A DNA stretch of 31,633 bases from a virus. The stretch's first letter is position 1; every line of letters starts with the position of its first letter. Shown piece by piece: positions 1-31,505 of this stretch. Below the pieces are notes generated by a model. It was not told the origin of the DNA and ran no database searches. It saw only the letters and a list, made by a program, of their open reading frames with translations. Made by a program: the position numbers and the translations under genes. The stretch is from IMG/VR virus record IMGVR_UViG_3300049856_000101, positions 1 to 31,633 of that record, one strand, 5' to 3'.

Positions 1-185
1 ATCATTATCCCATCAACCAATACACTAATCAGTTTGGGGGCGTTCTCTCTTGCCTGATATCATGACACGAATGGCAACAGCCAAAAAAGAATTGGATGCA
101 ATCAAAGCAGGTTTTGCCAGTGGACAGCAACAATGGGAAGCTGCGACACTAACCACTGCAACTTTTATTGTGGCATTCTCGACAC
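1..185. repeat. Terminal direct repeat (left copy), circular contig closure
   Basis: Bases 1-185 match 31449-31633 with one difference, T58 versus C31506. The difference is synonymous (GAT/GAC, Asp) in the gene starting at 50. Such an overlap at contig ends is expected from a circular or circularly permuted genome, giving a unit length of 31,448 bp. The mismatch argues for two variants in a population, or a read error, rather than a copy made by the assembler. A true short terminal repeat of the virion DNA is the alternative and cannot be excluded from sequence. Confidence 0.93.
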
Positions 186-400
186 CACTAGTTATTACTG
201 CAACTTTCGCAGATGACGATTTTCCTTTGTTGTTCACTGACGCTGATGCTGGCGGTGGCATCCATGTTATCAATCCGGCATTGCGCAAAAGTTTGTATCA
301 GTGGCACATTCATTCAACGGGGGTGCTGCAAAACTGGACAATTGCCGCAACATTGTTGTCTTGGAATGCGCCGTTGACTTTCACATGTGGGGCGGAATAA
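50..400 (+). CDS. Small tail-tip protein with helical N-terminus (paralogue 1 of the 5' window edge)
   Basis: A 116-residue protein of unknown function, probably a minor tail or receptor-contact protein because it directly follows the baseplate hub gene around the circle. The N-terminus (MPDIMTRMATAKKELDAI) is a short amphipathic helix that resembles the N-termini of the genes before (31215) and after (400). The remainder is beta-rich with many Thr, Ala and Phe. I chose the TTG start at 50: it has a G-run 9 bases upstream, it overlaps the previous stop, and it aligns with the starts of its relatives. ATG at 62 is possible but its spacing to the G-run is too long. The stop overlaps the next start (TAATG). 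Confidence 0.7.
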   Translation: MPDIMTRMATAKKELDAIKAGFASGQQQWEAATLTTATFIVAFSTPLVITATFADDDFPLLFTDADAGGGIHVINPALRKSLYQWHIHSTGVLQNWTIAATLLSWNAPLTFTCGAE

Positions 401-783
401 TGGCTGATGACCTAGTGAAACGAATGGCCGACATAGAACGAAGGTTGAGGGGGTTGAAGGCAGAACGCCGTGTTGATTTCTCCCAACTACAACTGTTCAC
501 ACAATCCTGGGATTTCTCGTTGACTTTGCCTGGCAGTGGCACGACCGATTATCTGGTGACCATCGAATGTGCAGGTGACCCAATTGCCGATGTTGCCGCT
601 GATGGGTTTCCTTTGGGGGTCAACAACACAATCAAATATGCCGGATATTTCTTTTCCGTTTCCGGCAATACAATGTATGCCGACATTTGGCTTGTCAACC
701 AAAAGGTCACATCCGAAACAGTACCATTACACATTAGTGCTTGGGCGTTAAACGGCATTTCAGCGACATGCGTGCGGGTGTAA
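400..783 (+). CDS. Small tail-tip protein with helical N-terminus (paralogue 2)
   Basis: A 127-residue protein starting at the ATG of a TAATG junction. An in-frame ATG at 301 lies inside the preceding gene and is rejected. Residues 1-22 (MADDLVKRMADIERRLRGLK) form a charged heptad-like helix closely resembling residues 1-18 of the protein at 31215 (IADIEREL). The C-terminal 100 residues are beta-rich with no motif I recognise and are unlike those of the two relatives. A shared oligomerising stalk with different distal domains is typical of phage baseplate appendages and receptor-binding proteins; the assignment rests on that and on position next to the hub gene. Confidence 0.7.
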   Translation: MADDLVKRMADIERRLRGLKAERRVDFSQLQLFTQSWDFSLTLPGSGTTDYLVTIECAGDPIADVAADGFPLGVNNTIKYAGYFFSVSGNTMYADIWLVNQKVTSETVPLHISAWALNGISATCVRV

Positions 784-784
784 C

Positions 785-970
785 ATGAAAGCTCGCATAA
801 GAATCAAAGGCCAACAGTTACGTGCAGAATGTAAAAACTGTTCAAGGTTTCTATCCGAGATCCATGGTTCAACAAACACTATCGTAAAATGTTCGAGTTG
901 TAAGCGTGACAATGCCATCAATATTGTGTATAGTAGTGAACAGATGGCAGGTTTGAACCAACTGGGTTAA
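785..970 (+). CDS. Com-like small zinc-ribbon protein
   Basis: A 61-residue basic protein with two CxxC pairs: Cys16/Cys19 (CKNC) and Cys36/Cys39 (CSSC). This is the layout of the Com family of zinc-finger regulators, named after phage Mu Com, which binds mRNA to activate translation of the Mom DNA-modification gene. No mom-like gene is recognisable nearby; the next gene is the capsid polyprotein. Com-like proteins of unknown role are often found in phage structural regions. Binding of zinc and of nucleic acid is inferred from the cysteines and positive charge. The start lies one base after the previous stop and has no clear ribosome binding site, suggesting coupled translation. Confidence 0.65.
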   Translation: MKARIRIKGQQLRAECKNCSRFLSEIHGSTNTIVKCSSCKRDNAINIVYSSEQMAGLNQLG

Positions 971-996
971 CTGCTACAAACCAGAACGAGAATGTT

Positions 997-2883
997 ATGG
1001 TTACAAAATTGAATATGGTTCAACAGTTGAACGCTAGCCAACAGGCGCGTTCTAATATTGTTGTTGCTGCATCTGGCCGAATCATGGCCGATGGTTTATC
1101 TCAAGACCCCTTACTAGCGCAAGTTCGTATGCGCAATGGCGACATGGTTTACGTTAAAGACCTTCCAGTTATTGACGCTAAGAACCGTCAGCCTAATGGC
1201 GATTATTCGATACCGTTAGTTGCTGACCACGATGGTGAAGTTAAGTCTCAAGTTGGCGCTGCATGGTTCTTCATAAAAAATGAGATGCTATGCGCTTTGA
1301 TTCTTTGGACTCAAAACACTATTGCGAATGAGCTTAAGCCGTTAGCAGATGATGGAGTAATGCAATTCTCTACAGAGGGTTATGTTAGCGACATCGACGA
1401 TAACGGTAAGTATGGCGATTTTTGGATTAGCACTCTGTCACCTGTGACAGTAGGCAATGACCCTGCAACACAAGTATTGAACCAATCAGATGGAAGAATC
1501 CTGGTGACTAATGCGATCAGGTTCGAAACTAAAGGAGAAAATGAAGTGGCTACTAAACCAGTAGAAAAAAAGACTATTAAAAAAGAAAACGAGATTACAC
1601 CCGAAGAGATGCAATCTATCATTGACCAAGTTAAAGCAGAAGTTATGTCTGAACTTGATGCACCAATAAACGACGTCGAAAATGACGTTGATGAAACACC
1701 AGAACATGACTCGGCTGAACCAGCTGGAGAAATCGTAGAAAAGGAAGAGGAAACAGTGACTACAAACAAGGTAAGCACTACACCAAAAGCAACTGTTGCT
1801 AACACGACACCACGTCAACCAATCATTACTGTAAAGAATGACATGAGTGGCGATGGCGCACTTAAAGCGTTTTCTAATGCTATTGCAGAAGCTGCACGTG
1901 ACCATTCTGGCGCTGCAGGTGTACGCGCTTTAATGAACGTATATAAAGCACAAAACAAAATTACAGGTGATGCTATTGTGCCAGAGAAGATTGCTGCGAC
2001 TTTCTTCAAAGCATGGTTGGATAATGAAAGCCTTGCATTCGCAAGATTCATGAACTCTAAAGCTGGCGCTGTATATTCGTTTGGAACTACTGACACTGCT
2101 CAAGGTCATGCTAAAACTGACCCTTCAACAGCGAAAACATCTCAGACACTTACAACAAAAAGACGTGACTTGAAAGCGCTTGCGTTATACAAGAAACTCG
2201 ACATTGATCAGCAAGACCTGTTTGATGATGAATCAGGTGAACTTCTCAAGTTTCGTGCGCAAGAACTTTCTGCACGTATCAACAACCAAATTCTTGTTGC
2301 TGCTCTTTTGGGTGGCACTCAAGAAGGTTCTGTTGGCTCTACAGAAGGTGCAGGTACTCGAGGTTTGTTTGGTATTCTTACTGACTCGCAGGCTGCATCT
2401 AACACGTTTGGTGATTCGGTAGCGTCTGACGTTACTGGTACTAGTGGCGAAGATGCTTACTCTGCAGTTGTACGCACGATTGGTTCAATCGTTGTTACTG
2501 CAGGCGGTAACGTAACAAGCGCTGGACGTACTTCAAGTGGAATCACTTTGTTTGTACCTTGGGCTGCAGGTGGCGCATCTTGGATTACGCAACTGTTGCT
2601 TACAACAAACGAACAAGGGCAGTATCTATTCCCTGCAGGTTCAAACCTAGAGGCACTATTGCGCATCAACCGTATTATTGAAGTACCTGAATTGGCTGCA
2701 AGCAATCAACTCATTGCTGTAGCTGACGGTGCTTATCAACTTTATGGTGAGAATAACCCGAGCATGTACCCATTCTTTGACACTTCAAAGAATGTCGATG
2801 TTCTGTTAGCTGAACAGTTCATTGCAGGGTCACTTGCAGGTTACAAACAAGCTGCAGTATATACACCTTACGCTGGTTCATAA
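997..2883 (+). CDS. Prohead protease-scaffold-major capsid protein fusion
   Basis: A 628-residue polyprotein combining three head-assembly functions. Residues 1-175 look like a prohead protease of the HK97 U35/S78 type: His78 in VADHDGEV and Ser125 in QFSTEG fit the His-Ser pair. Residues about 184-290 are Glu/Lys/Thr-rich and probably act as the scaffold (delta-like) domain. Residues about 290-628 look like an HK97-fold major capsid protein, with the N-arm, Gly-rich loops and a C-terminal SMYPFFDTSKNVDV segment that fits the end of the P domain. HK97 uses a separate protease (gp4) and a scaffold-capsid fusion (gp5); fused proteases are known from other phages. In-frame GTG codons at 1546 (Val184) and 1756 (Val254) follow purine-rich Shine-Dalgarno-like sequences, so shorter nested products are possible. 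Confidence 0.85.
   Translation: MVTKLNMVQQLNASQQARSNIVVAASGRIMADGLSQDPLLAQVRMRNGDMVYVKDLPVIDAKNRQPNGDYSIPLVADHDGEVKSQVGAAWFFIKNEMLCALILWTQNTIANELKPLADDGVMQFSTEGYVSDIDDNGKYGDFWISTLSPVTVGNDPATQVLNQSDGRILVTNAIRFETKGENEVATKPVEKKTIKKENEITPEEMQSIIDQVKAEVMSELDAPINDVENDVDETPEHDSAEPAGEIVEKEEETVTTNKVSTTPKATVANTTPRQPIITVKNDMSGDGALKAFSNAIAEAARDHSGAAGVRALMNVYKAQNKITGDAIVPEKIAATFFKAWLDNESLAFARFMNSKAGAVYSFGTTDTAQGHAKTDPSTAKTSQTLTTKRRDLKALALYKKLDIDQQDLFDDESGELLKFRAQELSARINNQILVAALLGGTQEGSVGSTEGAGTRGLFGILTDSQAASNTFGDSVASDVTGTSGEDAYSAVVRTIGSIVVTAGGNVTSAGRTSSGITLFVPWAAGGASWITQLLLTTNEQGQYLFPAGSNLEALLRINRIIEVPELAASNQLIAVADGAYQLYGENNPSMYPFFDTSKNVDVLLAEQFIAGSLAGYKQAAVYTPYAGS
1531..1548 (+). promoter_or_regulatory. 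Internal ribosome binding site and GTG start within the capsid polyprotein
   Basis: AAAGGAG at 1531-1537 lies 8 bases before GTG 1546-1548, which is in frame and encodes Val184, exactly at the junction between the protease domain and the acidic scaffold region. Initiation here would give a 445-residue scaffold-capsid protein without protease, the form needed in hundreds of copies per head. The region is rich in Glu and Lys codons, which create purine runs by chance, so the site is suggestive, not proven. Confidence 0.45.
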
Positions 2884-2885
2884 TC

Positions 2886-3290
2886 GTGGATAAGTCTCAA
2901 TTTCAATTGCTATCAGGGTCGTCTGCTTTAGACTGCCTAAGCAAAGGCGATTTTGAGACTATCCGAGACATTATGGAACTACGTCTGTTGGATTCTTTGT
3001 GCTTAACAGTAGCACCTACAGAGAATGTTTCTTTGTGGGAACAACTGCTAGCCGATGCGCTTAACATTTCGGTTATGGTCAAACAAGATCAGGGTTTGCA
3101 ATCTGAAAACATGCGGAACTATTCGTATCAGCTCAGAGACTACGCAAACACCTGGTCTATGTTGGCACAAAAATCTGGCGATCTTCTCAACAAGTTTAAC
3201 GCTTGTGACAGTGGTATTACTTTCCAACGGAATGAAGCCGAAATCATTTATGGTGAAACCTATCTAGGTGAATATGATGAATGTATTTAG
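2886..3290 (+). CDS. Putative head-tail connector (head completion) protein
   Basis: A 134-residue mostly helical, acidic protein directly after the capsid gene, starting with GTG two bases after the capsid stop. Helices about 23-40, 46-66 and 76-110 are apparent. The position (capsid, then this gene, then two small genes, then major tail protein) is where siphoviruses encode the adaptor of the SPP1 gp15 / HK97 gp6 type that binds the portal. No diagnostic motif is visible, so the function comes from order and helical content. It overlaps the next gene by 14 bases. Confidence 0.55.
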   Translation: MDKSQFQLLSGSSALDCLSKGDFETIRDIMELRLLDSLCLTVAPTENVSLWEQLLADALNISVMVKQDQGLQSENMRNYSYQLRDYANTWSMLAQKSGDLLNKFNACDSGITFQRNEAEIIYGETYLGEYDECI

Positions 3291-3612
3291 TGGTAATTTC
3301 GGTGCGAAAGTAGACGCTGTTTATGTTGAAGAGAATCGTAAGAACCCGTTAGGTAATGTCGCTGGCGCAGAACATGATGTAACAATCATTGTTACTGAGG
3401 CATTTTCGAACTCTATGCAATCTGAGATGCAATCTCAGAACTCAGACGTTCTTGTTTACGCTCAGGCTGGCAGTGTTTTATCTAGCAAAACGTGTGAGGG
3501 TGGCACTTTGAAATTTAACGGGCGTGTTATGCGTATCGATAGTTTCGCTGTTGCTATGAATCAACGCACGGGCGTGGTTGCTCATGTCGAGTTAGGTTGT
3601 ACTGAGTTATGA
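3277..3612 (+). CDS. Putative head-tail stopper / head closure protein
   Basis: A protein of about 111 residues, beta-rich, with a long basic-acidic insert (VEENRKNPLG). Second of three small genes between capsid and major tail protein, the usual place of the head closure (stopper) protein, which in SPP1 and HK97 is a small beta-barrel. I chose ATG 3277 because AGGTG at 3266-3270 is 6 bases upstream; ATG 3274 and GTG 3268 are in frame and possible. Its stop overlaps the next start by ATGA. Assignment by position only. Confidence 0.55.
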   Translation: MNVFSGNFGAKVDAVYVEENRKNPLGNVAGAEHDVTIIVTEAFSNSMQSEMQSQNSDVLVYAQAGSVLSSKTCEGGTLKFNGRVMRIDSFAVAMNQRTGVVAHVELGCTEL

Positions 3613-4067
3613 TTGGTTTAGCTGTACTGGAATATGTCGCATCTAAAGTTGATGGGTTGGTTGTAGGGCAGAATTGTTTCTATGAGGATTTACCTATTGA
3701 TTTTGAGACTGGGCAGATGTCACAGTATGGCGTCTTTGTTACTACTGAACCTGCACCAATGTCGCGCACAAGTGATCGTCAACAATTTTTGACGTTCTAT
3801 GTTGCGATAGGTGAAGGTGCGCTAGATGAAGATGGTGTTGCTATTGCTGAGAAGTACGAGACAGATCGTATCCTTGACGCGATACAAACCGCCATTATTT
3901 ATTCTGACGACGATGCTCAAGAACTCTGCAGCTTAACGGTTACAGATACCGATCTAATTTATAAAGATGTCCGTCTAGAGGGCGCTAGTTCAAAAGAACG
4001 CGGTGTGACTCTACCAAATGGCGCAATAGTCAAGTCTATTGTCGCGAAAGTAATTTACAAAAACTAG
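3609..4067 (+). CDS. Putative tail terminator / minor head-tail joining protein
   Basis: A 152-residue alpha/beta protein starting within the ATGA shared with the previous stop. The N-terminal helix (GLAVLEYVASKVDGL), a following FYEDLP strand and the central FYVAIGEGALDEDG resemble the general layout of tail terminator proteins (lambda gpU, SPP1 gp17), which cap the tail tube and join it to the head. It is the last gene before the major tail protein, the usual place of the terminator. No catalytic or binding motif is visible. Confidence 0.55.
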   Translation: MIGLAVLEYVASKVDGLVVGQNCFYEDLPIDFETGQMSQYGVFVTTEPAPMSRTSDRQQFLTFYVAIGEGALDEDGVAIAEKYETDRILDAIQTAIIYSDDDAQELCSLTVTDTDLIYKDVRLEGASSKERGVTLPNGAIVKSIVAKVIYKN

Positions 4068-4082
4068 AAGGGAGTACCTATC

Positions 4083-4658
4083 ATGGGTGCTAGCGAATTT
4101 ACAGGAATGAGAAAAGTAACAATACGAGATACTGCCACTGGTAACACTGGCGATTTTGTTGTTATGAATCCAGAAAAAGTTGGCTCGGATGGGATGTCTA
4201 TTCCATTAGAAGTTAATGAAGTAACAGAATCATCTATGGCGGGTGACGTAACTGCACCTAATGGTGTGAATGTAGGGGCAGCGACTCTTTCATTGATACC
4301 AAAAAGCAAAGACGATCTTGCAGCGATATGGCCTCAAGGTTTCGATGCCACTACAGGCTCATGGCAACCACCGTTAGGTGAATGTATTTTGAGCGATGTC
4401 ACTATTGCTTACGAGAAAGTTTGCGACACTAAAGCAAATGTTATCTTACGTCATGCACAGATTGCATTGTCGTTTGAACTTGCGCTTGCACGTGACGATA
4501 CTTTCACTGCAGAGATCATGGTCTACCCTACGGTTTCTTTAGGTTCAGAATATGGCCTTGCAGGTGACTTTGCTACAAAGATGATTCCTTACCAGATATA
4601 CGACGGAGTATATGACCCATCGACTGACGTCATTGCGTTTGACCCCGAGGCAAGTTAA
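4083..4658 (+). CDS. Major tail (tube) protein
   Basis: A 191-residue protein with a strong ribosome binding site (AAGGGAG, 8 bases before ATG). It is rich in beta strands, Thr, Val and Asp, with phrases such as ARDDTFTAEIMVYPTVS that fit the strands of a tail-tube monomer. It lies between the joining proteins and the chaperone and tape-measure genes, as the siphoviral tube protein does. A hairpin follows the stop at 4673-4704, consistent with separately tuned high expression. Length and place fit the family; the sequence alone has no signature motif. Confidence 0.7.
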   Translation: MGASEFTGMRKVTIRDTATGNTGDFVVMNPEKVGSDGMSIPLEVNEVTESSMAGDVTAPNGVNVGAATLSLIPKSKDDLAAIWPQGFDATTGSWQPPLGECILSDVTIAYEKVCDTKANVILRHAQIALSFELALARDDTFTAEIMVYPTVSLGSEYGLAGDFATKMIPYQIYDGVYDPSTDVIAFDPEAS

Positions 4659-4672
4659 ATAATGGGATGGTG

Positions 4673-4704
4673 ATCGGGCTGGTTTCATGGCTGGCTGGCC
4701 CGAT
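4673..4704 (+). terminator. GC-rich hairpin after the major tail protein gene
   Basis: Ten bases at 4673-4682 pair with 4695-4704 (seven Watson-Crick pairs, two wobble pairs, then one more Watson-Crick pair) around a 12-base loop. No T-run follows, so it is not a standard intrinsic terminator. It more likely stabilises the 3' end of the tube-protein mRNA or attenuates transcription into the chaperone and tape-measure genes. It fills the 65-base gap between these genes. Confidence 0.45.
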
Positions 4705-4723
4705 TGCTTAGAAACGGGGAATA

Positions 4724-5128
4724 ATGTTTGATGACCTTATTGATGATGAGGTAAGAAAATCGTTTCCTGGTTGGTCTGACAAGGATATATATGATTTCTA
4801 TGTTGCAGCAAAATCTGTTGAGACACCTGCGAAGTCAGAAATTTATGGTACAGATTTATCTCATGCGAGAATCATTCGTGAACTTGGGTGGGATGCGTTC
4901 AAAGAATACTTGCGTGCAACAACTGGGATAGACGAGCTAGATGATGACGATTTTGTTGCGTTAACTAATGCTTGTCTTTTTTTGCGTGAGTTAGAGAACA
5001 CAAGTTTGTATGCTGCAATTTATGGTGCTGCAGCGGAGGGCCACAAAAAAACCATTTCTGCGCGTAAAGAATCTTTTGGGAATCTTACCGCTGGGCTAAA
5101 TAAGTTTGAGATCGTTGAAGGAATCTAA
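4724..5128 (+). CDS. Putative tail assembly chaperone
   Basis: A 134-residue acidic helical protein between tube and tape-measure genes, the place of tail assembly chaperones, which bind the tape measure protein during tail assembly. Start ATG follows GGGGAATA. Most siphoviruses make a second, longer chaperone by ribosomal frameshifting; here a T-run at 4977-4983 (TTT TTG codons) is slippery in principle, but the -1 frame stops two codons on and the +1 frame within three. No second open frame lies before the tape-measure ATG, which overlaps this stop by TAATG. The chaperone thus seems to be a single product, or the assignment is by position only. Confidence 0.6.
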   Translation: MFDDLIDDEVRKSFPGWSDKDIYDFYVAAKSVETPAKSEIYGTDLSHARIIRELGWDAFKEYLRATTGIDELDDDDFVALTNACLFLRELENTSLYAAIYGAAAEGHKKTISARKESFGNLTAGLNKFEIVEGI

Positions 5129-7224
5129 TGGCTAGTACGAATGATGTTCTTGTTTCCTTTCAAGGTAAAGATGATGGTTTAGGTAAAGAATCTAAAACAC
5201 AAAAAGAAAACATTAAGGGCGTTGGTGACGAGTCCAAAAAGACTGACGAGCAGATACAAAAGACTGGCGATTCTGGTACGACCGCTGGCGATAAAATTGG
5301 TAAGGGTTTCAAGGTTGGTGCTGCAGCGGTCGCCGCTGCAGGTGTAGCAGCTGCAGCGGTTGTAGGGAAGTTAGCCACCGATGCCATTAAAGCCTATGCA
5401 GATTTTGAGCAGCTTTCTGGCGGTGTCGATAAGTTGTTTGGTACTGCTAGCGATGCAGTCATGGCTAACGCTAAAGATGCCTATAAAACTGCAGGGCTTT
5501 CTGCTAATGCTTACATGGAATCAGTCACTGGATTTTCTGCATCTCTTATTGGTGGCCTAAAAGGTGACACTACTAAAGCTGCAGACCTAGCCAATGTCGC
5601 TATCAGTGACATGTCAGACAATGCCAACACTTACGGTACTGACATGGAGTCAATCCAGAAATCCTATCAGGGTTTTGCTAAGGGCCAATTCGGAATGTTG
5701 GATAACCTCAAGCTCGGCTATGGCGGTAGTCAGGCTGAGATGGCGCGCCTCATCAACGATTCGGGTGTTTTGGGCAGCACTATGGTTGACGCTGCAAGTG
5801 TCAGCGAAGTCTCGATGGATAAGATCATTGAGGCCATCCATAAAACACAAGAAAACATGGGCATCGCTGGTACTACAGCGAAAGAGGCAGCTTCCACTAT
5901 CTCAGGTTCTTTTGCGTCTACTCAGGCAGCGTGGACAAACGTGCTTGCATCATTCGGTAGTGGTAGTGATATGGCTATTGAAGAGGCTGTTAATGGTCTT
6001 ATCGAATCTGCAGGTAATTTTGCTACGAATATTTCTAAGATTCTGCCTGACGTTTTGGGTGGTGTCACTGGGCTAATCCAGGTTCTTATTACAGAGATAC
6101 CGCCATTGCTTGCAACGCTATTGCCAGCGCTGATAGATGGAGTTGTACGAGTTATCGAAGGGCTTGTTGACGCGATACCTGGGCTGATCGATACGTTAAC
6201 TAAGGTCGCACCTGATCTTGTTGCTGGCATTGTAAAGATATTCTTAAGCATCCTAGATGCGCTGCCTGAAATCATTGACGGGTTTCTTGAGTTGTTTTCT
6301 GCTTTGGCTGAGGCGTTGCTTGACCCGAAAGTTTTGACGAAACTTATTAAATCTTTAGCTAAAGCAATCATTGGCCTTGTCGATTCAATAGTTAAATTTA
6401 TCAAAGACCCTAAAGCGTTAGAGACAATATTGCAGGGCGCAATCACTTTGTTTCTAGAGATAGTAAAAGCGTTACCTGAAATTATCATTGCGCTTGTTAA
6501 AGCTATACCTGAGATCATTAAGAGCCTTGTCAAGTTCTTGACTGACCCTAAAAACCTAGAGATGATATTGCAGGCAATGGTCACTTTGGGATTGGAATTA
6601 GTTAAAGCTATTCCGTTGATTATTGTAGAGATAGTTAAAGCGATAGGCGAGCTGATTCCTGGTTTGAAGGGTGTCTTTGAGAAGATTCCCGAGGTTGTAA
6701 AGAAAGTTTGGAATGGCATTGTTGATTGGGTGAAGGGTCTGCCAGAAAAAATTGTTAGTGCGTTCGGTGCTATCAAAGAGGGCATTAAGGGTGCGTTCAC
6801 TAGTGCGATTGATAGCGCTAAGGGTGTAATGAAAAAGGGAATCAATTGGATTATTGAGAAGATCAACAAGGTCATTAAGGGATTCAATAAGCTCTCGGGT
6901 AAAATTCCTGGCGTTGGCGATAAGCTGCAGATTCCTGAGATACCCGAGTTAGCTAATGGTGGTTATGTTGGTTTGGCTGGCGGTGGGCGTGTTTCTGGCC
7001 CTGGTTCTGGCACGTCTGATTCTATTCCTGCGATGCTTTCTAATGGTGAGTTTGTTTTGAAAGCGCAGGCTGTCCGTAATCTCGGGCTAGATAATGTTGC
7101 TGCTATCAATGAGGGGCAGACCCCTCAAGCTAGTGGCCCTATTGTGGGCGTTATGAATGTGCGTGAAGAGGCTGACGCTTTGGCGTTAGCTCAAACAATC
7201 GGTGCGCTAGTCCGTTTCGCGTGA
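5128..7224 (+). CDS. Tape measure protein
   Basis: A 698-residue protein that sets tail length and is ejected with the DNA. It has a charged N-terminal region, an Ala/Val-rich hydrophobic stretch (about 65-80), an 'FEQLSGGVDKLFG' segment typical of actinophage and Gram-positive tape measures, and long hydrophobic helices with ALPEII / AIPEII repeats at about 300-520. DPK motifs at nt 6322, 6406 and 6544 mark internal repeats; the last two start 46 residues apart. The C-terminus (GGYVGLAGGGRVSGPG... then SDSIPAMLSNGEFVL) is the usual tape-measure end. At about 1.5 Å per residue the tail would be near 100 nm. The start overlaps the upstream stop. Confidence 0.93.
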   Translation: MASTNDVLVSFQGKDDGLGKESKTQKENIKGVGDESKKTDEQIQKTGDSGTTAGDKIGKGFKVGAAAVAAAGVAAAAVVGKLATDAIKAYADFEQLSGGVDKLFGTASDAVMANAKDAYKTAGLSANAYMESVTGFSASLIGGLKGDTTKAADLANVAISDMSDNANTYGTDMESIQKSYQGFAKGQFGMLDNLKLGYGGSQAEMARLINDSGVLGSTMVDAASVSEVSMDKIIEAIHKTQENMGIAGTTAKEAASTISGSFASTQAAWTNVLASFGSGSDMAIEEAVNGLIESAGNFATNISKILPDVLGGVTGLIQVLITEIPPLLATLLPALIDGVVRVIEGLVDAIPGLIDTLTKVAPDLVAGIVKIFLSILDALPEIIDGFLELFSALAEALLDPKVLTKLIKSLAKAIIGLVDSIVKFIKDPKALETILQGAITLFLEIVKALPEIIIALVKAIPEIIKSLVKFLTDPKNLEMILQAMVTLGLELVKAIPLIIVEIVKAIGELIPGLKGVFEKIPEVVKKVWNGIVDWVKGLPEKIVSAFGAIKEGIKGAFTSAIDSAKGVMKKGINWIIEKINKVIKGFNKLSGKIPGVGDKLQIPEIPELANGGYVGLAGGGRVSGPGSGTSDSIPAMLSNGEFVLKAQAVRNLGLDNVAAINEGQTPQASGPIVGVMNVREEADALALAQTIGALVRFA

Positions 7225-24291: not shown

Positions 24292-24846
24292 ATGACAAGC
24301 GCAGCACCCGTAGGACGACCAGAAAAATACACTACACACGTGCAACCACACCTGGAAGAAATCAAAGTACTAAGACAAAGAGGCATGAAACTAGATGCCA
24401 TAGCTAAACACCTAGACATAAGCCGTGATACGCTCAATGAATACCAAAAGCAATATTCCGAATTATCCGACGTATTAACCACAGCCAAAGAAAAACTACA
24501 CGCCGACATGCTAATCAAAGCAGAAGAAAGCCTAATGACTTTAATCAAAGATCGTGAAGTAACAGAAGTCACCATAGAAAGTGGCATCGGTAAAGATGGG
24601 CCTTACGAAAAAACCATCGAACGTACAAGAATCATACCGCCGAATCCAACAGCCGTAATCTTCACACTCAAAAACCGTGACCCTGAAAACTGGAAGGACA
24701 GAACAGAACTAGATGCCAGGGTGCTACACTCGACAATCCCACAGCCACTAGCGCCAGTGCGAGAAGATGACATAATAGAAGGCGAAGTAATCCAAGAACC
24801 AAAAGAGATAGAATCGCCTAGTGAGACTGACCACAGCGTACAATAA
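24292..24846 (+). CDS. Terminase small subunit
   Basis: A 184-residue DNA-recognition subunit of the packaging motor. Residues 27-52 (ILKVLRQRG-like helix, KLDAIAKHLDISRDTLNEY) form a helix-turn-helix, followed by a helical region with KAEESLMTLIKDREVTE typical of small terminases that form rings, and an acidic C-terminal tail (EDDIIEGEVIQEPKE) that probably contacts the large subunit. The phrase TLKNRDPENWKDRTEL is a hallmark of this family. The ATG at 24292 lacks a ribosome binding site but follows TACAAT, suggesting a leaderless transcript; an in-frame ATG at 24154 lies within the glycosyltransferase gene. It overlaps the large subunit by 26 bases. Confidence 0.85.
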   Translation: MTSAAPVGRPEKYTTHVQPHLEEIKVLRQRGMKLDAIAKHLDISRDTLNEYQKQYSELSDVLTTAKEKLHADMLIKAEESLMTLIKDREVTEVTIESGIGKDGPYEKTIERTRIIPPNPTAVIFTLKNRDPENWKDRTELDARVLHSTIPQPLAPVREDDIIEGEVIQEPKEIESPSETDHSVQ

Positions 24847-25999
24847 AATCCTTGCGATGTCGGGGCGTTACCGTGTAGTGCAAGGCGGTATGCGAGCAGG
24901 CAAAACCTTTGCGATACTGCAGTACTTCATAGCGTTAGCAGAACAAACCAACAACATCCTTTTAACAGTCACGTCGAATACTTACCCATCATTGCGCTTA
25001 GGGGCGATGCGTGACTTTGAAATTATCCTAGAAGCCACAGGCCATTGGCAGTATTTCGACGAAAACAAAACAACTAGCACCTGGACATGTAGAGCAACAG
25101 GTTCTAAGATCGAGTTTGTAGGGCTAGATGAGCCACTTAAAGCGCGTGGCCCTGCACGCCATCATCTGTTTGTTAATGAAGCTAACAGAATCAAGTACAG
25201 CGTCTTTGAGGCGTTGGCGTTGCGTACTAGTGGAATCATCTTTTTGGACTACAACCCATCGGCTAAGTTCTGGGCGCATGATGAGATTGTGAAGCGTGAG
25301 GATGCGAGCTTTGAGATACTAACTTATCTGGACAATGAAGAGTTACCGCCTGCTATTCGTGCTGACATCGAGTCACGCGACCGCAATAGCAATTGGTGGA
25401 AAGTGTATGGACTAGGGCAAATCGGTGAACTGGAAGGTAATATACTAAAAGGCTGGACATTCCTAGACCAACTACCCGAGCAATCAGAGCTACTAGCCTA
25501 TGGCCTTGACTTTGGATTCAAACCTGACCCATGCGCATTGGTATCACTGCACAAAACAGATGACGCTTTAGGTGCAGTAGAAGAATGGGTACAATACGAG
25601 CTGACATCTAAAGACATAATCCGCGAAGTCCAAAAGGTAGTGCCACCCGACAAGTTAGTTATCGCAGATAATGCGCGCCCTGAAATAATCCGAGAGATGC
25701 AGATGGCAGGCATCCAAGTAATACCTTGCGTGAAACAAGAAAACATAGCAGGCCAAAAAGTAGGACTGTTAGGCCAACTCGAAATGATGGCTGACTATAA
25801 GTTTCTGGCAGTAGGTGAAATCTTACAAGCGGAATATCTCGACTACCATTATGCAGAGTCACGCGATGGCACTTTCGTTTCTAAAGTACCTGACGGGCAA
25901 GATCACTGCTTAGATGCACTAAGGTATGTCTGGTATTGGACTCACCGCAAGTATATACTAGAGACTGCGATGGCTGCGATCTTGAAAGAATATAAATGA
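24821..25999 (+). CDS. terL: Terminase large subunit
   Basis: A 392-residue packaging ATPase-nuclease starting with GTG. Walker A is QGGMRAGKT (21-29); LFVNEA (116-121) fits the Walker B/catalytic Glu of Terminase_3 (PBSX-like) enzymes. The RNase H-like nuclease has Asp230 in YGLDFGFKPDP, Asp283 in VIADNARPE and Asp361/Asp365 in GQDHCLDALRY. It drives DNA into the prohead and cuts it; the near-complete circular overlap of the contig would suit headful packaging but does not prove it. Base use changes inside the gene: the part near 25430-25750 is A/C-rich, the flanks G/T-richer. It overlaps the portal gene by ATGA. Confidence 0.95.
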   Translation: MRLTTAYNKILAMSGRYRVVQGGMRAGKTFAILQYFIALAEQTNNILLTVTSNTYPSLRLGAMRDFEIILEATGHWQYFDENKTTSTWTCRATGSKIEFVGLDEPLKARGPARHHLFVNEANRIKYSVFEALALRTSGIIFLDYNPSAKFWAHDEIVKREDASFEILTYLDNEELPPAIRADIESRDRNSNWWKVYGLGQIGELEGNILKGWTFLDQLPEQSELLAYGLDFGFKPDPCALVSLHKTDDALGAVEEWVQYELTSKDIIREVQKVVPPDKLVIADNARPEIIREMQMAGIQVIPCVKQENIAGQKVGLLGQLEMMADYKFLAVGEILQAEYLDYHYAESRDGTFVSKVPDGQDHCLDALRYVWYWTHRKYILETAMAAILKEYK

Positions 26000-28050
26000 G
26001 AAACCCATTCGGTAAAAAAAGAGTATTCGCAAACGGTGCAGATGTCGCGTCAGTCCCTATAGCAAACATGGCGCAGCAATATACTCTGCCAGGTTTAATG
26101 TCGCGTTCATCGTACGATAATGGTTTCGCGCCGATCTCTGCAATCTCTGACGAGATACTGAAACGCAACCTGCGCTTAGGTCAAGCAGAAAATCCTGAGA
26201 CAGATGTTACTGATCAATACTTTTTTTGGAACGCCATGGCGCGCCCGAATGACCGCATGGGTTACCTGCAGTTTATTGATCTTTTAGTTGCTGGTTTTCT
26301 TTCGCTATCAGAATTTAGTTTACTCGTATGCCATGCAGCAAAAAATGGCGAGGTCGAATATGGACGACCTGAATCGGGTTTCACTTTCGATAATATTGCA
26401 GGCTTTATTGTCGTACCGAATGACTGCAAAGAACTTAACTCGCAAGGTCTAGAAGAATGGACTGTTGACTTTGGGTCTACTTATGGTGGTCAGCGTAAAT
26501 TCTACCGTGACAGCGTTATGACTTTGAAGTACTCGTTGCTGCCTGACGATGGAGTAACAGGCGTGTCACCTGGTTCTGCATCTGCACAAGAGGCAGCGAT
26601 ACAAGATCGTTTGAATCAACAGGTGCGAGCAACTTTCGATAACGGTGCAACGCCATCAATCATTGTTACCATTCATGCACGTTCACATGAAGAATATTCT
26701 ACCATCCAACAGGCATACGAAAAAAACAATCGGGGCGCTTCAAAAGCTGGCGGTGTAGTTTACCAATCTGTCATAGACAATGGGATGTTGCAAGGCATGG
26801 GTGAACCACGCATTGAAATCACACCTGTTGGAATGACAAACAATAACTTGGCTATCAAAGAGATCGTTGATTTTACTAGCACCAATATCACTTCGAATTA
26901 TGGTGTCAGTCCTATCATCTATGGTGACGCGACTACTACAACATTTCAAAACCAGAACCTTGCAGACTCAAAGTTTTTGGACAGAGTGCAAGCAATATTG
27001 GTGCGCCTGTTTAGTTCTTTCGAAAATGAACTTGCACGCCTAACAGAAACGCCTGTTCTACCTTTTACTTTTGTTTGGGACAATACCGATATTGAGATTG
27101 CGGAAGAACAAGAAATTAAAGCACGCACAAAAACAGAACAGGTAAGGGCGTTTGTTGGTTTGGTTCAATCAGGCGCGACACCTCAACAGGCAGCAATAGT
27201 TTTAGAGTTAGGCGAAGAGTGGCAAAAGATTGCAGTCATAGAACCTGCAGTAGCGCCTGAGCTTGCACCTCAAGCACCATCATTGAATCTGTTCGATCAG
27301 GGTTGTACTTGTCCTGAGCATCGCAATGCGTTACCGAAACGCATATCGGAAACAGAACAATCGGCTCAAAAAAAAATTCTTAATATCCTAAAAGAGATAG
27401 CTAAAGAACTGTTTGACGACCTGAAAGTTAACGCGATAACGCAAAGCCAATACGACAAAGAACTTATTGACGAGCTAACTGCAGTCATGTCGCAGGGCGC
27501 TAACAATACAAGTAACACTTTGGGTGACGGTGTTGGTGCAGATCGTACGCTTGTTGATTTCGGTGCTATCTCTGAGCCTTCTAAGTTACGTCTAGAGAAA
27601 CGCGCATCTAAAATTATCACTAACTATGTCGATTTCGTTTCAGATAAAATCAATGGGTTGCAAGATGATGACCCTGCAAAGAAAGTGTTTACTGATTTTT
27701 ATGCGAAATACGGACAGTCCCGCGCACAGTTGATTGCGCAACAAGAAACTAAGAACGCATACCAGAATGGTGAGCTTGATTCGGCTAGCAATATTGAGAG
27801 TTGGCTGAAACAGAATAAGCCTCAATCTTATATTGTTAAAACGTGGGAGACTACTAGTGATGTGCCTTGTCCTTTTTGTCGGCGAATGAATGGTACGGAG
27901 GCTGGCATTAGAGATTCTTTTGTGCCTGGCGGTCTTATCGACACTGGCGAAGTAACATTGTTTTTAGATGCAGGTTATACAGATGGCACAATTCCAGATG
28001 CGCACGCGAATTGCCAGTGCGTGTTCAAGTTCAAGTTGATTTCTAAATAA
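25996..28050 (+). CDS. Portal protein fused to MuF-type minor head protein
   Basis: A 684-residue protein. Residues about 1-420 form a portal of the siphoviral type: an early conserved part (FFWNAMARPNDRMGYLQFID), an ISSxSGP-like region and LADSKFLDRVQAILVRLFSSFENEL as the long portal helix. A Pro/Ala linker follows (APELAPQAP), then CTCPEH and helices at about 445-570. Residues 570-684 are a MuF domain: SRAQLIAQQETKNAYQNGEL, WETTSDVPCPFCRRMNG and DAHANCQC with the usual Cys/His residues. MuF proteins help head assembly or enter the host with DNA. Portal and MuF are usually separate genes; the fusion ensures 12 MuF copies per portal ring. Confidence 0.85.
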   Translation: MRNPFGKKRVFANGADVASVPIANMAQQYTLPGLMSRSSYDNGFAPISAISDEILKRNLRLGQAENPETDVTDQYFFWNAMARPNDRMGYLQFIDLLVAGFLSLSEFSLLVCHAAKNGEVEYGRPESGFTFDNIAGFIVVPNDCKELNSQGLEEWTVDFGSTYGGQRKFYRDSVMTLKYSLLPDDGVTGVSPGSASAQEAAIQDRLNQQVRATFDNGATPSIIVTIHARSHEEYSTIQQAYEKNNRGASKAGGVVYQSVIDNGMLQGMGEPRIEITPVGMTNNNLAIKEIVDFTSTNITSNYGVSPIIYGDATTTTFQNQNLADSKFLDRVQAILVRLFSSFENELARLTETPVLPFTFVWDNTDIEIAEEQEIKARTKTEQVRAFVGLVQSGATPQQAAIVLELGEEWQKIAVIEPAVAPELAPQAPSLNLFDQGCTCPEHRNALPKRISETEQSAQKKILNILKEIAKELFDDLKVNAITQSQYDKELIDELTAVMSQGANNTSNTLGDGVGADRTLVDFGAISEPSKLRLEKRASKIITNYVDFVSDKINGLQDDDPAKKVFTDFYAKYGQSRAQLIAQQETKNAYQNGELDSASNIESWLKQNKPQSYIVKTWETTSDVPCPFCRRMNGTEAGIRDSFVPGGLIDTGEVTLFLDAGYTDGTIPDAHANCQCVFKFKLISK

Positions 28051-28060
28051 GGGGAATGAA

Positions 28061-29161
28061 ATGGTAAACAGTAATATAAGAGCTAGGTCACCTAAAGGAA
28101 ATGTTGGCGTTAGTAGTTATGTCGATGCAGGTGAATTGTCTGCGCTTAGCGGTGGCGTTGTATCTGGTTTCGCTGCAGCCTCGGCTGCATCTTGGACTTT
28201 GCAGATTGGTGGCGTTTCGGGTACTCAAGATGTTGTTGTAACAAAAAATCCTAGCGGTCAATCAGAGCTGCTTTCTGGTACTGCAGGTTCTTCTATTCCT
28301 TTTGTTATTGGTGGCGCGCCTGGTACACCTGGACAATCTCGGACAGATGCGCTTGTGGTATATAAAGACCCTTTCACTACATCGGTTGTTAATGATGGTA
28401 TTGATGTTGTTGATTATCAGGTTGTTGCTGGTACGGCTGCGACTACAGGCACACAAGTGCCACCTAATGAGGCTGCTATTCGTGCTGCTATTCCGACTGG
28501 TTCGCTAAAGTTCTATGCAGTTTTGGGTTATGTAACTATTGCTTATGGTGCTGGTTCTGTGACTACAGGTAATTACTTTTTGAACCGTTCTTTACTACAT
28601 ACGCAAACTGTAGCTAATGCAACAGAACTAGCGTTTATTACTGCAGTTGAAGGGATGCGTGTCTACCAAAAAGACACCGATCAATACAAGTGCTATGACG
28701 GTGCTGCATGGTATGTACTCGCATCAAAGAAACCACAGACTGCTTTCATGGCTAGACGGACTACAGACCAAACTTTGGCTACTGGTTCAGGAACTAAAGT
28801 TCAGTTCGCTACAGAAGATTTCGACACTGGCAGCAACTATGACAATGCAACAAACTATTGGTTTACAGCACCATTGACAGGTATATATCATTTCGAGGCA
28901 CAAATAAATATTGATGCAGCTGGTACAAGCGTGTGGTGTTATCTATTGAAGAACGCTGCAACAACGGTGGCTATTGATTATCGTTATCCCAACACAGTCA
29001 ATGACGACACCTCTGCAAGTGTTAGTGCAACAATTCTTTTGACAGCTGGCGATACGATAGAAGTAAGGGCATTACACAATGCAGGGGCTAATAGGTCTTT
29101 GCTTGGTAGCTCGGTTGGTGCTTGTTATTTTTCTGGTTTCTTTGTCGGGCTTAACAGTTAA
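28061..29161 (+). CDS. Structural protein with C-terminal C1q-like domain
   Basis: A 366-residue protein. Residues 1-220 are rich in Gly, Ser, Val and Thr with beta strands and no motif I recognise. Residues about 228-366 look like a C1q/TNF-type jelly roll: AFMARRTTDQTLATGS at the start, YWFTAPLTGIYHFEAQI as the central signature, ATILLTAGDTIEVRA and a final YFSGFFVG strand. C1q-like heads form trimers and bind ligands; in phages they are found in fibres and decoration proteins. Its place between portal and distal tail gene suits a head or tail fibre. Start ATG follows GGGGAATGAA. Confidence 0.75.
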   Translation: MVNSNIRARSPKGNVGVSSYVDAGELSALSGGVVSGFAAASAASWTLQIGGVSGTQDVVVTKNPSGQSELLSGTAGSSIPFVIGGAPGTPGQSRTDALVVYKDPFTTSVVNDGIDVVDYQVVAGTAATTGTQVPPNEAAIRAAIPTGSLKFYAVLGYVTIAYGAGSVTTGNYFLNRSLLHTQTVANATELAFITAVEGMRVYQKDTDQYKCYDGAAWYVLASKKPQTAFMARRTTDQTLATGSGTKVQFATEDFDTGSNYDNATNYWFTAPLTGIYHFEAQINIDAAGTSVWCYLLKNAATTVAIDYRYPNTVNDDTSASVSATILLTAGDTIEVRALHNAGANRSLLGSSVGACYFSGFFVGLNS

Positions 29162-29170
29162 AAGGGAACA

Positions 29171-30079
29171 ATGCGACTTGTATTTATTCGTGAAAGTGAC
29201 CTAGAAACTTTTGATCTGGGCGCATACCCTTATGGGCCTTTTGCTTTAGACCCGAATGTTGTTTTGCCTGGCGGTACAGCGTTGGACATTACAGGCTACG
29301 AATATTCGGGGCGCGATGGTGGCTATCAAACATCGTCACGCTTGCAGCGTCGGCCTTTTACTGCGCCGTTTATGATTCGTGAAGATTGGACTACAGAGTT
29401 TGGCCTGTTTGAGTTGATCAGACAAGCGCAAGGTTTCTTTGATTCACACAATGATGACCTGGTTTCTGAGCTATTTACTATCGAGGTCTATACGGATGAT
29501 CGCGTGCAGTCGTCTTATCAGATGCGACACGGTACGATTTCTGTACCTTTTAATGCTAAGACTGATAAGGGTGAAATGCGTGCATCTGCTCAGGTGTCAT
29601 TCATTTTTGGTGACCCTTATCTTTACCCGATTGGCGATAGTGGTCTTACTGTCAGGCTTTATGCAGGGGGTCAAACATCTGGCACACCTAATGGGCGTTC
29701 ATGGAGTACAACGAATGGTGCAGCGTGGAATACCACTAACGGTAAAACATGGGTTACTGCAGGTGGTTCAGGTGACCCAATAGCGGTCGATGTTATTTCT
29801 ATTGCAACCGTGCCAGTATCAATTATTTCTAGTGGCCAACTTGTAGACCCTTCTATTGTGAATCTAACTAATGACTCATCATTTACCTACGATGGGACGC
29901 TAGGCGCTGGCGATGTTCTAACGGTCGATACTTTCGGCAATGTTCTTGTTAATGGCGTTGCGCCAGCAAACGCTTATTCTGGTTCTTTGACTGCAATCAA
30001 TGGTACTAATACTTTTGCTTTGCTTGCATCTGTAGGCAGCCCTGGTTATGTTGACCTGAATATTCTCGGGGCTTTCTAA
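29171..30079 (+). CDS. Distal tail protein (Dit-like)
   Basis: A 302-residue protein. The N-terminal ~155 residues (LDITGYEYSGRDGGYQTSSRLQRRPFTAPFMI, then a helix FGLFELIRQAQGFF and a strand group ending ASAQVSFIFGDPYLYP) match the siphoviral distal tail belt domain that joins the tube to the baseplate. Residues 165-302 are a Gly/Thr/Asn-rich galectin-like region. Ribosome binding site GGGAAC upstream of ATG. The hub gene follows immediately, the usual Dit-Tal pair, but the pair lies between portal and capsid, not after the tape measure gene. Confidence 0.75.
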   Translation: MRLVFIRESDLETFDLGAYPYGPFALDPNVVLPGGTALDITGYEYSGRDGGYQTSSRLQRRPFTAPFMIREDWTTEFGLFELIRQAQGFFDSHNDDLVSELFTIEVYTDDRVQSSYQMRHGTISVPFNAKTDKGEMRASAQVSFIFGDPYLYPIGDSGLTVRLYAGGQTSGTPNGRSWSTTNGAAWNTTNGKTWVTAGGSGDPIAVDVISIATVPVSIISSGQLVDPSIVNLTNDSSFTYDGTLGAGDVLTVDTFGNVLVNGVAPANAYSGSLTAINGTNTFALLASVGSPGYVDLNILGAF

Positions 30080-31222
30080 ATGTGGAAGCTCGAATATTCT
30101 TACGACGGCGTTTATATTGGTGACTTGTTTCCTATCTCTAGCGGTTTCACACAATCAATACAGCGTAACGGGGTAGGGCAGATTCAGTTCAGCGTTTCGT
30201 TGCGTGCGTTGGCTAGTTTCTGTGAAAGTAAATCGTTTGACGTGACACGGATGTTTACCCCGATCAAGTCATCTATCAAAACGGTTCAAACTGGGGCATC
30301 TACATCGGGTGAATCTATGGGTGGTTGGCTGTCTGCCAGGCCATCTTTTAGTTTGGGGGCATCGGCTGACACGATGGTGCAGTTTATGTTCACTGGTTGG
30401 CTAGGTTTGTGTGCTGGCGCTTTCATTTTACCGCCGTATTCTTACAGCGGAAACTTCAATACTCTCGCAGCGTATCAGATTGCACGCATGATTGAACGCA
30501 CTACAATTGCTGGCGCACCCTGGCCTATAACGTCAGGCACGTCAGATACGCTACCGTCTGTGACGGGTACGATAGATGCCCCTAAAACGTTGAAAGATTT
30601 TCTTTTAGAACGTGCAGATAATCAGACTGGCACAGGCACGTTTGATGTTTACGCTGACCCATCGGGCAAAATTACTTTGTACACAAAATACGGTTTTGAT
30701 ATTTCAGCGGATTCAGTTTTTAACTACCCTGACATCGGCAATAAGTACGATCTGCGAGATATTGGTTTTGCTCAGTGGGATGGTTTTGTTTCTGACATGT
30801 TTCTTACTGGCGCAGGTAATGGTTATGAAAGCACGTCAGGTTCTGAGGGTGCAGCAATATTTAGTGAGGCTCGCAACTCTGACACGATAACTAATATTGG
30901 TTATTGGCAACACGCTGCCAGCGAATCAGACATTTCTACACAAACAGAACTAGACAGTAAAGCTACTAGTTATGTATTCAATACAGACAAACCATTTGAC
31001 ATGCCTACTCTTAAAGTTGATGGTGATCGCTTTAATCTTTATGCGCATGATCTGGGTGGTGACCTGTGGCTGGGCGATGTGATCTCTGTCAGTGTCAATG
31101 GCTGGGCGAAACCGTTGCTGCCTATAGTCACACCCATTGTTTTGCGTATCAATCAGATCGACATGGCAATTGATCGACTAGGGCATTGTGATCTTTCGCT
31201 AGGGATGGTGGCAGATGTCTAG
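30080..31222 (+). CDS. Baseplate hub / Tal-like minor tail protein
   Basis: A 380-residue protein immediately after Dit. Its start (MWKLEYSYDGVYIGDLFPISSGFTQSIQRNG) and alternation of beta segments with a helix-rich middle (APKTLKDFLLERADNQTG, then a FDVYADPSGKITLYTK strand pair) fit the hub fold of Tal/gp27-like proteins that plug the tail tip. The C-terminal part (LWLGDVISVSVNGW... INQIDMAIDRLGHCDLSLGM) matches the final strand of such domains. No C-terminal hydrolase is attached. It overlaps the next small gene by eight bases. Confidence 0.7.
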   Translation: MWKLEYSYDGVYIGDLFPISSGFTQSIQRNGVGQIQFSVSLRALASFCESKSFDVTRMFTPIKSSIKTVQTGASTSGESMGGWLSARPSFSLGASADTMVQFMFTGWLGLCAGAFILPPYSYSGNFNTLAAYQIARMIERTTIAGAPWPITSGTSDTLPSVTGTIDAPKTLKDFLLERADNQTGTGTFDVYADPSGKITLYTKYGFDISADSVFNYPDIGNKYDLRDIGFAQWDGFVSDMFLTGAGNGYESTSGSEGAAIFSEARNSDTITNIGYWQHAASESDISTQTELDSKATSYVFNTDKPFDMPTLKVDGDRFNLYAHDLGGDLWLGDVISVSVNGWAKPLLPIVTPIVLRINQIDMAIDRLGHCDLSLGMVADV

Positions 31223-31505
31223 CGTGATCGACCAGATTGCAGACATCGAACGTGAATTGCTTGCGTTGACAGCGAATCAACCGCCTAACCCCGCACAGAT
31301 CGCGACGTTTCGTGTTGACTATACATCAGTTGGAGCAGACGAAATCAAAACAATCGTGTTTGATGATGTGCCTCGGTTCATCCAAATTTATGGGTTATCC
31401 AATCAGGCAGCCTACATCTACTATTCTGGGGGACAATTGAAAGCAAAAATCATTATCCCATCAACCAATACACTAATCAGTTTGGGGGCGTTCTCTCTTG
31501 CCTGA
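31215..31505 (+). CDS. Small tail-tip protein with helical N-terminus (paralogue 0)
   Basis: A 96-residue protein, first of three consecutive genes with similar N-termini. Residues 5-18 (IDQIADIERELLAL) form a charged helix like VKRMADIERRLRGL in the protein at 400. The rest is beta-rich with Tyr/Ile (FIQIYGLSNQAAYIYYSGG). It starts inside the hub gene and its stop overlaps the TTG start of the next gene. Position suggests a baseplate or tail-tip part; function unknown. Confidence 0.65.
   Translation: MSSVIDQIADIERELLALTANQPPNPAQIATFRVDYTSVGADEIKTIVFDDVPRFIQIYGLSNQAAYIYYSGGQLKAKIIIPSTNTLISLGAFSLA

Follow-up and report, generated by a model that had tools for sequence, protein, structure and literature searches.

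Codon-level evidence for an internal start at the capsid N-terminus of phage protease–capsid fusion genes

Fusions of a prohead protease with a capsid protein are annotated in hundreds of phages (Arthrobacter, Gordonia and Streptomyces phages from SEA-PHAGES, lactococcal phages and gut prophages), and it is hard to see how a prohead could accommodate a protease on every subunit of its shell. The question of how such a gene might supply a shell is raised here by the open reading frame (ORF) at 997–2883 (+ strand) of the window, that is, the whole stretch of viral DNA analysed (31,633 nt, IMG/VR record IMGVR_UViG_3300049856_000101). The first-pass annotation of this locus had read protease, scaffold and capsid in a single frame, which the translation of the window confirmed: the frame is uninterrupted from 997 to 2883, has no internal stop and encodes 628 aa. 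It had also proposed translation from two internal GTG codons, giving few protease-bearing and many protease-free chains.

The fusion protein (protease, linker/scaffold, capsid) matched the profile of PHROG 3270 (head maturation protease; protease–capsid fusions) with E 6e-18 over its residues 173–623, the protease half of the profile not being reached. No match of the window protein was obtained with Pfam and NCBIfam profiles, among them NCBIfam NF045541 (prohead protease/MCP fusion), or with the curated profile Peptidase_S78/TIGR01543. An AlphaFold2 model (61 sequences in the alignment, mean pLDDT 61) was confident for a protease core (residues ~70–155) and for a capsid domain (~390–628). 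These parts are separated by the low-confidence stretches 175–200 and 215–284, inside which both GTG codons are located.

The predicted protease core (residues 70–155; 1204–1461, +) was modelled with a pLDDT of ~85 and is supported by BFVD matches and alignments. When it was modelled alone and compared with BFVD, annotated prohead proteases were among the matches (E ~5e-4); against the PDB, herpesvirus proteases ranked first at an insignificant E (~0.1). Ten homologous fusion proteins were matched by TIGR01543 (10/10) and PF04586 (7/10). Of the catalytic residues suggested at the outset, His78 is invariant in the 61-row and 80-row alignments; Ser125 is plausible as the sole Ser of the predicted strand 122–130, its alignment with the family Ser being ambiguous by 2 residues. 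Homology gives good support, and the fold moderate support, for assigning this part as a putative protease. A structural match to the protease model was also recorded for BFVD entry A0A6G5XYR9 (668 aa; 42% identity over 148 columns). No known protein is probably closer to the window polyprotein; its record was not located by tblastn or among the phages BitterVaud1, BigBern1 and BadAztec1.

The segment that follows (1546–1755, +) had been described as an acidic scaffold, and in the model it is an acidic, mostly disordered linker with one helix (202–220). The capsid protein coding region (1756–2883, +) comprises an N-terminal helical part and a predicted HK97 fold (residues ~330–627). The HK97-type major capsid fold expected for this domain was recovered in comparisons of the modelled capsid part with HK97 prohead II (Foldseek E 2e-7) and with HK97 head II (VIA Z 16.1, window residues 333–626). 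In several related loci (L004, L006, L007 and others) one stretch of the family profile (~580–660) is matched both by the C-terminus of the capsid and by a major tail protein encoded downstream, which suggests a C-terminal domain shared by the two proteins. A solved capsid is available for Lactococcus phage Nocturne116 (PDB 9sz9 and 9sza), the chain having been deposited as the full 516-aa fusion.

Two candidate internal starts lie in the frame, both at the positions first annotated. At site 1, the Shine-Dalgarno (SD) sequence AAAGGAG (1531–1537, +) is found 8 nt upstream of an in-frame GTG (1546–1548, +; codon 184), from which a scaffold–capsid product of 445 aa would be made. At site 2, the purine-rich, SD-like run AAGGAAGAGG (1741–1750, +) precedes a second in-frame GTG (1756–1758, +; codon 254), and the product would be a capsid protein of 375 aa. 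The SD duplex energy at GTG 1546 (−8.7 kcal/mol) is the best among the in-frame starts of the ORF and ranks in the top 0.8% of the 1058 ATG/GTG codons on the + strand, and that at GTG 1756 (−6.0 kcal/mol) ranks in the top 7%. At position 997, where the ORF begins, it is only −3.0 kcal/mol. Chance estimates were made by synonymous-codon shuffling of ORF 997–2883. A signal as strong as site 1 arose exactly at codon 184 with P 0.011, at any in-frame ATG/GTG within codons 160–290 with P 0.028, and across the whole ORF with P 0.083; a GTG at codon 254 with an SD energy at or below −6.0 had P 0.047. GTG makes up 5 of the 47 Val codons of the ORF, and both GTG sites fall in predicted disordered linkers. 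Each signal taken alone is weakly beyond chance (P ~0.01–0.05) and thus suggestive, and the earlier caution that Glu/Lys codons yield purine runs by chance was a fair one. The evidence from the window by itself is modest; the comparative data decide.

IMG/VR was scanned with the complete protein, with its capsid part and with the terminase, and a genome scan and a tblastn search against phages were added; none of these yielded a close relative of the window. Relatives were reached by way of the window's portal–MuF protein, which led to the Bifidobacterium phages BlindUri1 and BlindBasel1 (each with a single 684-aa fusion gene adjoining the portal gene), and from these to Arthrobacter, Gordonia, Streptomyces, Lactococcus and Leuconostoc phages. 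Further loci were added from IMG/VR (24 and 80) and from bacterial genomes (58). The fusion ORFs retained numbered 169, or 136 after clustering at 75% identity. Profiles of the window/Blind group and of the actinophage group were aligned by hhalign with a probability of 99% (E 6e-18); the window protein is ~15–23% identical to its relatives, and its linker alignment is insecure. In Gill, Makai, Darby and BitterVaud1 (L006, L008, L017, L186), the last of which belongs to the main fusion family, a scaffold helix motif, (L/M)-x-E-E-Q-K-x-V-V-x-x-L-I-G-x-A-L, appears to be repeated two to four times.

The portal used in this search is itself fused to a MuF-type domain (684 aa, window 25996–28050), as is likewise reported, in the passages of PMC5513430 on cluster AK Arthrobacter phages, for their portal. 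Terminase and portal are encoded at the right end of the window, followed by tail proteins, and the capsid at the left end (24821–31505 and 1–7224), as if the record were that of a circularly permuted genome; the genes separating portal from capsid encode a Dit-like protein and further tail proteins or are of unknown function. A lone leftward gene in this otherwise rightward genome (20006–20563, − strand) encodes a 185-aa protein, the C-terminal part of which resembles a transglycosylase by eye.

Among the 136 non-redundant fusion genes, 123 carry a start codon with an SD (energy threshold ≤ −5.5) at one position, column 672 of the 136-row alignment, where the variable linker upstream gives way to a conserved peptide downstream (consensus E-G-x-x-(x)-M-(K/S/T)-(H/R)-N-V-F-(E/D); from its Met the peptide reads M-S-H-N-V-F in Gordonia phage Gill). 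Exact SD 5-mer cores were present here in 104 of 131 sequences (60.9 expected from synonymous shuffles, z 10) and, with one sequence per 50%-identity cluster, in 23 of 30 (8.2 expected, z 7.2). Where the site-2 residue is Val, its codon is GTG in 20 of 21 cases (4.8 expected, P 3e-13); Gly is encoded by GGA in 45 of 58 cases at position −4 (9.4 expected) and in 29 of 31 at −5 (6.8 expected); and Lactococcus phage 1706 has TTG after AAAGGAG at this site. The SD-plus-start signals at site 2 are in frame in 108 cases, with 4 and 0 counted for the two remaining frames. Elsewhere in these ORFs, in their protease and capsid parts, such signals are depleted (z −3.0 and −5.9). Across the relatives, SDs of ORF starts and of internal starts are equal in strength (−8.4 vs −8.5).

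An energy-based synonymous test of SD strength at site 2 was not significant (−8.5 vs −8.0, p 0.08). This test does not discriminate, because K/E/G-rich peptides already favour SD pairing, and the exact-core and codon tests alone are decisive. One other Met, that of KGGEVxMFDDF (column 1198), has a strong SD-plus-Met combination in 80 of the 136 sequences and was rejected as a start, its codon bias running against an SD; as a control with an SD-like protein context it is free of the bias of the site-2 type and has the opposite one. Because GTG is used at 20 of 21 Val residues and GGA at most of the Gly residues, selection acts on the nucleotides and not on a protein motif. Codon comparison thus establishes nucleotide-level selection for an SD and start codon at the capsid N-terminus, family-wide. 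GTG 1756 of the window falls in this alignment column and lies 33 residues before a G-A-L-K helix (site 2 of phage Gill: 35 before G-S-V-K), and it is identified with the family site on the strength of this one alignment and of the distance to the next helix.

In correction of the first-pass annotation, family-wide conservation belongs to the equivalent of GTG 1756, whereas GTG 1546 (site 1, between protease and scaffold helix) has counterparts in fewer relatives. These are present in BlindUri1 (ATG170), Correa (ATG165), Darby (ATG241), the c2-like phage CHPC972 (ATG131), Nocturne116 (ATG145), phage 1706 (GTG171) and FP_oengus (ATG186). A start with an SD 5-mer occurs in the site-1 region of 61 of the 136 ORFs. 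Signals in this region are in slight excess (64 vs 60 expected synonymously), the remaining ORF being depleted, and ATG follows SD cores in 5.4% of cases there vs 1.9% elsewhere in the linker (P 3e-6). Site 1 is probably used by a subset of the relatives, though not universally.

Relatives with separate genes were also found, in phage records. Leuconostoc phage 1-A4 has a protease–scaffold gene and a capsid gene, the latter starting behind AAAGGAG (−8.7) at a position close to site 2 by alignment. In Streptococcus phage SpSL1 a protease gene is followed by a 417-aa scaffold–capsid gene with AAAGGAG, and the break lies near site 1. It had been foreseen that split-gene homologues might go together with a frameshift error in the window; the homologues exist, but a frameshift or assembly error behind the fusion is ruled out, because upwards of 130 non-redundant genomes share the fusion. 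A search for split capsid genes in the class to which one prophage host belongs (391 genomes) returned fused genes only. In a separate fusion lineage, the strongest SDs of their ORFs precede ATG197 of PAJU2 (AGGAGG, −10.8) and ATG200 of Rhizobium phage RHph_X2_26 (AAAGGAG, −8.2), and both ATGs align with the starts of the separate capsid genes of Moraxella phages Mcat7 and Mcat9 and of Stenotrophomonas SOVA965. An internal ATG also aligns in Salmonella FSL SP-016 and E. coli JLK-2012, but at least three other sites in each ORF have a better SD. Fusion and splitting of genes here leave the translation starts in place.

With this conservation, the domain order and the protease-free internal products proposed at first find support, and the ORF is quite likely a set of nested in-frame genes whose protease-free products arise from internal starts. 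We infer start use in this phage, stoichiometry and cleavage as follows. Ribosomes initiating at 997 would produce the protease–scaffold–capsid chain, and others, bound directly at an internal SD, would begin without a change of frame at GTG 1756, yielding the 375-aa capsid protein, and probably at GTG 1546 as well, yielding the 445-aa scaffold–capsid protein. Most shell subunits would come from the internal starts, and a limited number of proteases would be anchored in the prohead by the capsid domain to which they are fused. Linker and scaffold would afterwards be cut away by the protease, which would trim the shell. For this particular phage, initiation is somewhat favoured at 1756 and, to a similar degree, at 1546, at one or both of them. 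The ratio of few to many chains that had been proposed is conjectural: in the window the internal SDs (−8.7 and −6.0) are stronger than that of the ORF start (−3.0), but in the relatives the SDs of ORF starts and internal starts are equally strong. Translation of one frame from three starts into three overlapping products, the protease-to-shell ratio being set by ribosome binding sites and not by separate genes, is a tentative proposal that falls a little short of an even chance.

The same ORF could encode a true polyprotein, made as the full-length chain only and cut by its protease between the parts, with M-x-x-N-V-F serving in cleavage or in structure. Capsid precursors of HK97-type phages are usually processed by proteolysis, protease and capsid share one frame, and the PAJU2 polyprotein has been proposed to cleave itself autocatalytically (as quoted in PMC8306868). 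A protein motif, however, leaves the GTG at 20 of 21 Val residues, the TTG of phage 1706, the choice of GGA and GAA codons and the SD spacing unexplained, and every shell subunit would bear a protease. Codon choice led to the rejection of a protein motif or cleavage site as the sole cause, and this account is considered unlikely; cleavage of the full-length chain may take place alongside internal starts.

The SD and start codon might instead be the no longer functional remains of a once separate capsid gene, since the site is an ordinary gene start in the split relatives. A relic would decay, yet phages from many groups of bacteria keep SD and start across 32 clusters of <50% identity, and signals of this kind are avoided in the protease and capsid parts of their ORFs, which makes this reading very improbable. 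A greater, still minor, probability attaches to the view that the SD-like runs of the window are by-products of a Lys/Glu-rich linker in a divergent phage that makes no use of internal starts, even if its relatives do. The P values of 0.01–0.05 within the window leave room for this, as does the lack of a close relative in IMG/VR and by tblastn; against it, GTGs, which make up so few of the Val codons, occupy both family positions, each with an SD and in a disordered linker, and the ORF start is weak. Nested in-frame genes thus remain the preferred reading.

The protease–capsid fusion itself is already known: PMC5513430 describes it for phages of the Arthrobacter clusters AM, AU and AN, and PMC8306868 for Nocturne116 and, by citation, PAJU2. 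The passages of PMC5513430 on the fusion make no mention of internal starts, and no report of an internal capsid start in protease–capsid fusions was found in the open-licence literature, where it is apparently undescribed. If the nested reading is true, the conserved internal start removes the crowding problem, the shell consisting mainly of nested capsid protein while the fusion delivers the protease; and capsid N-terminus and mass are then misannotated in these fusion records. The more tentative three-start arrangement would exist in two fusion lineages or more and would have gone unnoticed in genes annotated by the hundred as 'capsid-protease fusion'. The internal start is an exact codon and is open to testing in cultured phages.

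In HK97 the protease (gp4) and the capsid protein (gp5, with an N-terminal scaffold domain) are products of separate genes; the window is alike in its putative protease type and in capsid fold and differs in that its genes are not separate. Phage lambda has in-frame nested protease–scaffold genes (C/Nu3) and a separate capsid gene, E. Translation from two starts in the window was originally thought to replace this lambda-like arrangement. The nesting does resemble C/Nu3, an SD and start lying in frame downstream of the protease domain (a likeness in sequence signature only); lambda, however, nests the scaffold alone, whereas the frame of the window runs on through the capsid domain, so that the nested product would include the capsid protein. 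Herpesvirus UL26/UL26.5 likewise pairs a protease–scaffold precursor with a shorter in-frame product; the shorter product has its own promoter within the gene, and a separate gene encodes the major capsid protein. The Arthrobacter, Gordonia and Streptomyces fusions ('major capsid and protease fusion protein'; clusters AM, AU and others; PHROG 3270) are homologous to the window protein, with the same order and the HK97 fold, and differ in sequence (~17–20% identical). The capsid polyprotein of Pseudomonas phage PAJU2 (NCBIfam NF045541 type) is likewise a fusion with a strong SD and ATG at the capsid N-terminus; it differs from the window in belonging to a separate lineage, in being annotated as a fusion and in its proposed autocatalytic cleavage (quoted in PMC8306868).
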